From Natronosalvus vescus (lineage in GTDB: Archaea; Halobacteriota; Halobacteria; Halobacteriales; Natrialbaceae), in NCBI RefSeq assembly GCF_023973145.1, contig NZ_CP099546.1, positions 2,976,001 to 3,040,000 of the forward strand: a stretch of 64,000 bases of DNA, in the 5' to 3' direction. Positions 61,165 to 64,000 of the stretch are shown in pieces (position 1 is the first letter of the stretch; each line of letters starts with the position of its first letter). The translations under genes and the position numbers were made by a program. The notes beneath the pieces were generated by a model. The model was not told the DNA's origin. It made no database searches and worked only from the letters and a program-made list of their open reading frames with translations.

Positions 61165-61377
61165 TCAGTACGGTGTGAGAACTGAGGTCACAAGTCCCAC
61201 GACTAACAGTCCCGCGATGATAAGGATGATAAACCCGACGATGTATCCGAACGCCATAGCGACAGCCCGGTAGTTTCGCGGCTTCCCAATCAACCAGCCC
61301 AGAATCATCACGTACACCGGAAGCATGATGATTCCGAAGATCACGTACAATCCAAGGTGGATCGTTTCATGCGCCAT
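61165..61377 (-). CDS. Small two-helix membrane protein of the NrfD operon
   Basis: A 70-residue protein, MAHETIHLGLYVIFGIIMLPVY and onward, with one hydrophobic helix, a charged loop (LIGKPRNYRAVAM) and a second long helix (FGYIVGFIILIIAGLLVVGLV). It follows the NrfD-like gene by 1 bp, so it is the last gene of that operon. It may be a small accessory subunit or assembly factor of the membrane complex. I do not recognise the family. Alternative starts are unlikely, as the first residue is 1 bp after the neighbour's stop. Confidence 0.75.
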   Translation of the reverse strand: MAHETIHLGLYVIFGIIMLPVYVMILGWLIGKPRNYRAVAMAFGYIVGFIILIIAGLLVVGLVTSVLTPY

Positions 61378-61378
61378 C

Positions 61379-62683
61379 TCAGTTCACCTCCTCCGGGTCG
61401 AGTTCAACCATTGGGATCACTTTCGTCGCGACCAGGAATCCGAGGCCGACCAGAACGATCGTGCCGATAAAGAGCCACCACTCGAGGAGCGTAGGGGAAT
61501 ACGATCCACTGGGATACAGGTTCGTCAGCGGTGGGGCAGTCGGGAACATGAGCCCTTCCACGATGAACATCACCTTCTTGTTCAGGATCGTCACGGAGAG
61601 GATCGCCGAGATGGCGACCAGTGCCGGAATGCTGAAGAACCGGTCGGGCCAGCCGATCATGAGGAACAATGCAACGACGGAGACGACGAGCCCGGCGACG
61701 GCCAGCCAGAAGAACGGCAACTCGAGCATCGCTCCAGTGAGTGCACCGATGTTTGTCGGGGCCGTGTATACCCCGGTCAAAATGTCGTGCATCGTGAACC
61801 AGATCGTCGCTAGTGCCAGGAACGCGAGGACGGTCGCGAGATCACGGAAGATTCGGTCTTCGATGACATCTCCCCAGTCGTACGCGAATCTGAAAATCGC
61901 TGTAATGATGATGACACCGGCGAGCGCACTTGTGAGCGACTCCGTGAGCATCGCTGCACCGGCTGCGGATCCGTACCACGCTGGTTGGGCGGCGATGAGG
62001 CTGAACAGCCACGGAACGACGCCGCCAGACAGCAGCGGCACGAGCGCAAGGATCGCTACCGCAAGCCACCAGAGGATCTGCTCGATCTTCTCGTCTTCCG
62101 ATCTCGAGTATCCGATCGTAAGCACCGAGTACAGCGGCGAGAAGACAGTGGGGAGTCGGTCTCGGAAGGCAGCTATCTCCGCTCTAAGTGAGAGACACAA
62201 ATACGTCAGACTCAGCACGAGGTACAGCGTAATCACAGCGATGTCCCAGGCCAGCGGCGAGTGGTGTACGGTGGCTGGCCACCAGAGGATCGTGTTGAAT
62301 ATCCTGTCGGGGCGACCCATGCTCAACACGATATTGAACGCGGCCATGCTGAGCGCAAGCACCGTCAATACCTCCGATACTCGAGCGATGGGGGCGAACC
62401 GGTCGATATCGATCACTCGTACGGCAGCCGAGATGGCGATGCCCCCGTGTGCTAGACCGACCCACCAGACGAACCCGCCGATGTACAGTCCCCAGGGAAC
62501 CCCTCCGGAGATCCCCCAGTCACCGATGCCAGTCACCGCCCAGACGCCGGCGTTGAGCTGGTACGCCCATGCGATCAGGAACAATACCGTCCCGAGTAAA
62601 AAGATCACGAGAAGCGCGTAGTACCGTTTCGATGTGTGCTCTAACGGGTACAGGATCCTGTCCTCGAAGACGTCAGTACTCAT
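61379..62683 (-). CDS. NrfD/PsrC-family quinone-interacting membrane subunit
   Basis: A 434-residue protein with about ten membrane helices. GISGGVPWGLYIGGFVWWVGLAHGG near residues 55-80 and AFNIVLSMGRPDRIFNTILWW match the PsrC/NrfD quinol-site region. HHSPLAWDIAVITLYLVLSL follows. A charged C-terminal tail ends PMVELDPEEVN. It passes electrons between menaquinone and the iron-sulfur subunit encoded upstream, whose stop overlaps its start by 4 nt. The catalytic molybdenum subunit expected for a Psr/Dms-like enzyme is not in the window. Confidence 0.9.
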   Translation of the reverse strand: MSTDVFEDRILYPLEHTSKRYYALLVIFLLGTVLFLIAWAYQLNAGVWAVTGIGDWGISGGVPWGLYIGGFVWWVGLAHGGIAISAAVRVIDIDRFAPIARVSEVLTVLALSMAAFNIVLSMGRPDRIFNTILWWPATVHHSPLAWDIAVITLYLVLSLTYLCLSLRAEIAAFRDRLPTVFSPLYSVLTIGYSRSEDEKIEQILWWLAVAILALVPLLSGGVVPWLFSLIAAQPAWYGSAAGAAMLTESLTSALAGVIIITAIFRFAYDWGDVIEDRIFRDLATVLAFLALATIWFTMHDILTGVYTAPTNIGALTGAMLELPFFWLAVAGLVVSVVALFLMIGWPDRFFSIPALVAISAILSVTILNKKVMFIVEGLMFPTAPPLTNLYPSGSYSPTLLEWWLFIGTIVLVGLGFLVATKVIPMVELDPEEVN

Positions 62684-63939
62684 TGATCCCCACCCCCATC
62701 GTCCGCGAGCGTCTCCATGCCGAGATCTTCGTAGGTGAACGGTCCATCCGTCGGTGTTGCGTTCTTCGATGGCTCGTTACCTAGATAGACGACGTTCGGC
62801 TCGTTTCCTTGTTCCTCGAGTAGCTTGAACCGGGATTGGTCTCGGTTCTCTCGAAGATACTGGCGGGGTTGGCTGTCCGCATCGTTCATGTCACCGAAGT
62901 GGATCGCATCGACGGGGCAGTCGTCCTCACAGGCGGTCGTCCCCCGTTGAGCGCTGTCGTCCTGTCGGTGGACGCAGAAGGTACACTTGCCCATGACACC
63001 TGCGGGTGGCGGCCCGCCGACTCGTCGATCGTTCCTATCAGTGTCCGACCCGATAAAGCCGGGAGACTTGTCGGTCGGCTCATCCTTCCCGAGGAAGTTT
63101 ACACCGTACGGACAGGCGACCTCGCAGTACTTACAACCGATACATCGATCGTAGTCCGTGAGGACGATACCATCTTCCTGACGTTTGAACCGCGATTGGG
63201 TCGGACAGACGTACGTACACGACGGTTCGGAGCAGTGTTGGCACGGACGGGGCATCTGTCCCTCGCTCACGTCGTCGTACTCCGTTTCCTCGTATCGGAA
63301 GACGTGCATCCACTGGCTGCCGCGGTCGGTATCGTTCTCCCGTTTACAGGCTTCCGCACACTTCAAGCAGGCAATGCATTGATCCGTGTCAATCACCATC
63401 CCCAGCTGGACGTCATCCCCGTCGGAATCTGCCGTGCTCGCGGGTGTGTTAACTGCTCGGTCGAGACAACCGGCCACGCTCGTTGCCGCTCCCGCTACGG
63501 CCAACCCACCCATTGTCTTTAGCAATCCTCGCCGGGAAGGTACCGCGTCTCCTCCGACATCGGGAACACCGGGAAGCGCATCCCCGTCGTCGTCAGTTGT
63601 CGCTTTGACCGTTGTTTCGTACGTCGGCCGCAGATCGATCCCGAACTCCTCGAAGACTGCTTCGTGGTGTTTTTCGTGGAACGCGGCCTCGGTCATTTCT
63701 CCCCGTGCAAGGGCCATCGCGTCTCTACTGATCTCGATGCCCAGGTTCGTGTCGAACTCCACGGTCTCGAGTTTGGCCTCGGCGCGGGCTTCCCAGTCAT
63801 CATCGAGGTCATCAGGAGTCCATCCCTGACCGAGATCTGGTATCTCAGGCGCTGTTTCTGGCGATTCGTCGCTCTCATTTGACCCGGAACATGTCCCCGA
63901 ACCACAGGTACACCGGGACGGATCTATGTCGGAACTCAT
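62680..63939 (-). CDS. Four-cluster iron-sulfur subunit with an internal Tat motif (DmsB/PsrB-like)
   Basis: A 419-residue protein from the ATG at 63939; a start at 63960 is also possible. The N-terminus has CTCGSGTC and a conserved helical domain (about 35-120: LDDDWEARAEAKLE, ALARGEMTEAAFHEKHHEAVFEEFG). Near residue 135 comes SRRGLLKTMGGLAVAG, a Tat motif placed far inside the chain, ending AGC. Four [4Fe-4S] motifs follow: CIACLKCAEAC, CQHCSEPSCTYVC, CIGCKYCEVAC and CTFC with CEDDC. It links a catalytic subunit to the NrfD protein. The upstream gene lies beyond the window. Confidence 0.88.
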   Translation of the reverse strand: MSSDIDPSRCTCGSGTCSGSNESDESPETAPEIPDLGQGWTPDDLDDDWEARAEAKLETVEFDTNLGIEISRDAMALARGEMTEAAFHEKHHEAVFEEFGIDLRPTYETTVKATTDDDGDALPGVPDVGGDAVPSRRGLLKTMGGLAVAGAATSVAGCLDRAVNTPASTADSDGDDVQLGMVIDTDQCIACLKCAEACKRENDTDRGSQWMHVFRYEETEYDDVSEGQMPRPCQHCSEPSCTYVCPTQSRFKRQEDGIVLTDYDRCIGCKYCEVACPYGVNFLGKDEPTDKSPGFIGSDTDRNDRRVGGPPPAGVMGKCTFCVHRQDDSAQRGTTACEDDCPVDAIHFGDMNDADSQPRQYLRENRDQSRFKLLEEQGNEPNVVYLGNEPSKNATPTDGPFTYEDLGMETLADDGGGDQ

Positions 63940-64000
63940 ACCGATACCCTCATCATGCATATGGATCCCACCGGACTGCGGGTAGGGTTGCGTGTGGAAA

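Follow-up and report, generated by a model that had tools for sequence, protein, structure and literature searches.

Close to the end of the window, the 64,000-nucleotide stretch of the Natronosalvus vescus genome that was analyzed (NZ_CP099546.1, positions 2,976,001 to 3,040,000), three adjoining genes are encoded on the minus strand. The first (62680..63939, minus strand, 419 aa; ATG at 63939, stop codon at 62680-62682) encodes an iron-sulfur (Fe-S) subunit composed of a leader domain, a Tat signal with lipobox and a domain with four cysteine motifs of the PsrB/ArrB/DsrO type. An alternative upstream ATG at 63960 is possible for this gene; the MSS/MTS start context is common to relatives. 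The gene overlaps by 4 nt that of an NrfD membrane subunit (61379..62683, minus strand; Pfam PF03916, E 1e-16), which is directly followed by the gene of a small hydrophobic protein of 70 aa (61165..61377, minus strand) with homologues at related loci. The closest named relative of the Fe-S protein, 94% identical, is that of Natronosalvus hydrolyticus, and a second Fe-S/NrfD pair of this kind, adjoining a halocyanin-like Tat lipoprotein, is present in the window genome. The divergent neighbor, just past the window end (L004:10357-11784, plus strand), encodes a Tat lipoprotein of the EB_dh type (PF09459), with its RR behind a longer-than-usual N-terminus.

The leader domain (residues 45-107; 63619..63807, minus strand) was matched by Pfam PF16947, Ferredoxin_N, at 84.9 bits against a gathering cut-off of 25 (E 4e-24). 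In the AlphaFold model of the window protein, the core of this domain forms three helices at a pLDDT of about 85-93, the linker is disordered, the signal helix is of low confidence and the signal shows no confident packing on the front domain. A sequence-only reading of the locus had described a conserved, acidic, helical front of some 130 residues; the helical domain was recovered, but the conserved part spans only about 63 residues, and the rest of the front is an acidic linker, disordered and without conservation. The CTCGSGTC knuckle that it had also pointed out is present (residues 10-17; 63889..63912, minus strand) but occurs in close relatives only, with any cysteine cluster before the domain found in 6/66 fused proteins, and was rejected as a functional part because it is not conserved. 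An N-terminus this rich in cysteine, which a few relatives share with the window protein, would suit a front domain that donates Fe-S or metal to the subunit and is not a Tat helper; given how few fused proteins have the cluster and that the domain itself lacks conserved cysteines, this explanation is regarded as very improbable.

The Fe-S domain (residues 180-355; 62875..63402, minus strand) has four cysteine motifs related to those of DsrO, TtrB, ArrB and NrfC. With these motifs and an NrfD partner the protein has the marks of a CISM Fe-S subunit (PsrB/DmsB/DsrO type), and the model of the domain gave ArrB and PsrB as best PDB matches with ActB among the next, in agreement with the earlier assignment to a DmsB/PsrB-type subunit. 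In searches with the NCBIfam equivalogs DsrO, TtrB, ArrB and DMSO_dmsB, the window protein stayed under all curated cut-offs (best DsrO, 160.9 vs 200; TtrB, 132.5 vs 416). The Fe-S subunits of PsrABC, ArrAB and DsrMKJOP are alike in cysteine motifs, fold and NrfD-type partner; the window type differs from them in the added leader domain before the signal and in that no catalytic gene adjoins the inspected loci encoding such fused, RR-bearing proteins.

The Tat signal and lipobox occupy residues 135-158 (63466..63537, minus strand), with the RR pair at residues 136-137 (63529-63534), SRRGLLKTMGGLAVAGAATSVAGC, a hydrophobic stretch after the pair and then Cys158 (63466-63468) of the lipobox VAGC. 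An RR followed by a hydrophobic region is the hallmark of a Tat substrate, and shuffling residues 108-187 yielded such a pattern in 0.1% of cases, shuffling the whole protein in 0.5%; the motif taken alone is uncommon, yet it is not impossible that chance would yield it. Two Tat profile models scored the window protein below cut-off (PF10518, 13.4 vs 22.7; TIGR01409, 13.6 vs 16.7). Conservation is a stronger argument than the shuffle statistics: R136, R137 and G144 are invariant in 40 aligned fused relatives, a set that had been selected by presence of RR, where mean column identity is 34%, and K141 and the hydrophobic stretch are conserved along with them. The lipobox AGC, the mark of an archaeal lipoprotein, is kept in 9/9 window-clade sequences seen and is absent from the other listed fused relatives, outside that clade. 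The proposal of a Tat signal with a lipobox-like end behind a conserved helical domain is thus upheld by the residues themselves and by their conservation in relatives. Predictors limited to the first tens of residues are expected to miss Tat signals buried in this way, so the cellular location of these proteins may be misjudged. A Tat signal that is not N-terminal has been described in the Streptomyces Rieske protein (PMC13186574); there the protein is polytopic and membrane-spanning segments are involved, whereas in the window protein a soluble domain lies ahead of the signal.

In ActB of alternative complex III (TIGR04519, MoCo_extend_TAT), too, a conserved leader some tens of residues long precedes the RR, and the protein is likewise an Fe-S subunit of the CISM type that docks to a quinol subunit of the NrfD type. 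Mature ActB of R. marinus lacks the first 74 residues, including the Tat signal (PMC5928083). TIGR04519 matched an ActB-like relative above cut-off; the window front gave no match to TIGR04519, the PF16947 profile gave none in the ActB rows, and no similarity emerged when profiles of the domain and of ActB leaders (three sequences only) were compared. Unlike ActB, the window protein has no molybdopterin-like domain, and its PF16947 leader can also be encoded by a gene of its own; by leader and domain content it falls outside the ActB/alternative complex III family. Whether the front domain stays tethered or is removed had been left as a choice. For the window protein and the rest of its clade removal is preferred, since the lipobox cysteine is conserved there (nine sequences) and since the ActB leader is removed, and the leader is probably cleaved at Cys158. 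In fused relatives outside the clade, which lack the lipobox, the leader domain may stay tethered.

A profile of the domain was run over 102 haloarchaeal loci and yielded 104 copies in three arrangements, designated classes A, B and C. Class A comprises 38 stand-alone ORFs of 52-87 aa, of which 37 (including two first copies of tandem pairs) stand immediately before a gene with an RR near its N-terminus, mostly with an 8 nt overlap; the exception is a 52-residue remnant (L147). All three of the downstream RR genes tested encode molybdopterin oxidoreductases, and RR was not found on the Fe-S partners inspected in these operons. At two loci (L079 and L080), tandem stand-alone PF16947 ORFs precede one molybdopterin gene. 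Modeling of the stand-alone form gave, at moderate confidence, three helices, and a fold search of the PDB with this model returned no significant match. The chaperone-like character suggested earlier for the leader agrees with gene positions only, in that a separate ORF precedes Tat-signalled molybdopterin genes. A TorD/NarJ-type chaperone (PF02613) is encoded in at least one stand-alone operon (L083), so the PF16947 domain would be an additional factor. NapD, which has a ferredoxin-type fold, binds the Tat signal of NapA (PMC10609526). The PF16947 protein resembles it as a small cytoplasmic protein from the operon of a Tat-exported molybdoenzyme and by its position beside the signal, in cis or in trans, and differs in being predicted all-helical and in being often fused. 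Stand-alone ORFs also hold the position of dmsE before dmsA-like catalytic genes, a likeness of gene order alone, in the manner of the haloarchaeal dmsREABCD operon that is needed for DMSO/TMAO respiration (PMC1971269).

Class B, to which the window protein belongs, comprises 48 haloarchaeal proteins in which the RR lies 18-70 residues past the domain and is followed by the Fe-S domain. The same succession was found in Chloroflexi, Nitriliruptorales and Dehalococcoidia MAGs; as bacterial MAGs carry PF16947, the idea of a haloarchaeal speciality was rejected. In the phylum sample, all PF16947 among the matches listed fell in one order. Taking classes A and B together, the domain stands before an RR signal in 85/104 copies. 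Class C comprises 18 of the 66 fused proteins, all in one clade (support 100/99), in which the domain is fused to the Fe-S domain without RR and its last helix is altered (YWEKYD vs FHEKYHE). All 18 (L103, L104 and 16 more) belong to Fe-S/NrfD pairs that have PF16947 and lack a Tat signal. Inverted NrfD topology as an explanation of class C was unsupported, the charge pattern placing both termini inside in all classes.

The expected co-variation of domain and RR therefore holds in classes A and B and at one further locus (L081) and fails in class C, where the domain is kept without the RR, the outcome that the sequence-only reading had named as a refutation. Class C disposes of the view that the front domain is inseparable from the RR, led to rejection of the strict rule that the domain always precedes RR, and means that the domain is not tied to Tat everywhere. 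The three arrangements nevertheless associate PF16947 with CISM Tat carriers and not with "ferredoxins"; the name Ferredoxin_N hides the usual tie of the domain to the export signal of respiratory molybdoenzyme-type complexes.

At L081 the Fe-S subunit (55-57% identical to its nearest window-clade members and placed beside that clade, support 89/81) has neither domain nor RR, both of which are instead located at the catalytic gene upstream. The notion that a window-type gene had simply split was rejected for this locus, since its stand-alone domain is nearest to other stand-alone domains, which indicates a swap of partners.

Fused RR loci and class C loci were also compared by their neighbors. 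Homologues of the 70-aa small protein were found near 34/48 fused RR loci vs 0/18 class C loci, and homologues of exported carriers, counted at a loose similarity threshold, near 26/48 vs 0/18 (p = 3e-5, kinship ignored). The altered last helix and the missing carrier homologues suggest that class C functions in a different setting. The redox proteins adjoining fused RR loci are often Tat lipoproteins. Two [2Fe-2S] Fer2 Tat lipoproteins (L120:4063-4926 and L090:7568-8422) adjoin window-type Fe-S/NrfD pairs; at L138, the Tat lipoprotein tested beside the Fe-S gene had no Fer2 domain.

These comparisons bear on two further explanations. The front domain could be a structural subunit, without export role, kept on the cytoplasmic side of the complex, either fused or as a small protein of its own, where it would touch NrfD or else the small membrane protein. 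That the three arrangements are for the most part those of Fe-S/NrfD complexes, that class C keeps the domain without RR, and that fused proteins outside the window clade have no lipobox and could stay tethered all fit such a subunit; in class A, however, the ORF immediately precedes, and in most cases overlaps, the Tat-signalled catalytic gene and not the Fe-S or NrfD gene, and lipobox processing in the window clade would sever the domain, and on balance a purely structural role is considered unlikely. Less probable still is that the RR stretch is a vestige and the protein is cytoplasmic or carried by another Tat partner. The sub-threshold scores of the TAT_signal models, the RR-less class C and the Fe-S subunits of stand-alone operons, which have no signal of their own, are what a vestige would predict, but it accounts poorly for the conservation of RR, K141, G144, the hydrophobic stretch and, in the window clade, the lipobox, for the lack of an adjoining catalytic gene at the fused RR loci inspected, and for neighboring redox proteins that are often Tat lipoproteins themselves.

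The observations are best explained, with a probability of roughly 0.6, by the window protein being the Fe-S subunit of an Fe-S/NrfD quinol module that is exported by Tat, with PF16947 left inside and aiding export. The subunit would fold in the cytoplasm, Tat would recognize the buried RR signal, and the Fe-S domain would come to lie outside the cytoplasm. The stretch of a Tat signal ahead of the RR remains cytoplasmic, and for this reason export would leave the front domain on the cytoplasmic side. In the window clade, cutting and lipidation at Cys158 would probably follow and detach a leader of 157 residues; in relatives without a lipobox it may stay attached. We infer that the three-helix domain acts in the cytoplasm on export of the CISM subunit, as an escort, by hold-back or by proofreading. 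A domain joined to the signal would do so in cis; one encoded by its own ORF immediately upstream of the molybdopterin subunit that bears the signal would do so in trans. Electrons would pass between menaquinol, at NrfD, and exported lipid-anchored carriers, namely halocyanin, the [2Fe-2S] protein or the haem-binding EB_dh protein. Architecture, conservation, gene order and neighbors are established by the sequences; export, processing, the action of the domain and the direction in which electrons flow are inferred. Weighing against this explanation are class C, the signal that is not confidently packed on the domain in the AlphaFold model, the domain model without a significant PDB match, the TorD/NarJ-type chaperone of L083 and the swap of partners at L081.

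How electrons flow in the roughly one third of haloarchaea that lack complex III has been called unresolved (PMC8305020); in natronoarchaea, neither complex III nor its alternative homologues were reported, and quinol oxidases could offer a route around it (PMC6176080). The PF16947 family bears on how haloarchaea without bc1 pass on electrons. With petB scored as PF13631 over 391 haloarchaeal genomes (99 without, 292 with), PF16947 was found in 97/99 petB-less and 100/292 petB-bearing genomes, and is thus present where bc1 is absent, as a replacement of complex III should be; the comparison counts related genomes, and 80 of the 99 petB-less ones are from one family (f1), which inflates the contrast. 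Two sampled genomes (G285 and G365) have neither petB nor PF16947. The pattern recurs in four genera (g41, g60, g65 and g76), and in the first of these PF16947 is present in 6/6 petB-less vs 1/5 petB-bearing genomes (p = 0.015). Direct reading showed the fused RR form in ten petB-less genomes outside f1, with further ones among the surveyed loci; for f1 itself, part of the evidence consists of long open frames. Nearly all petB-less genomes inspected carry the fused Fe-S/NrfD form, sometimes adjoining halocyanin; the exception (G092) has a class C and a stand-alone copy only, and another genome (G007) has no halocyanin-type copy.

At the level of genes, the fused Fe-S/NrfD form is a candidate for the missing complex III, with a putative menaquinol:halocyanin activity. 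A broader reading, put forward tentatively and at less than even odds, would join two proposals: that PF16947 represents a so far unrecognized type of escort domain, coupled to Tat, not related to TorD or NapD, and working for the CISM subunits of haloarchaea and some bacteria whether in cis or in trans, and that the missing complex III of haloarchaea without bc1 is the fused Fe-S/NrfD-halocyanin system. The Fe-S/NrfD module may also be present in genomes that have petB, and the window genome is among them.
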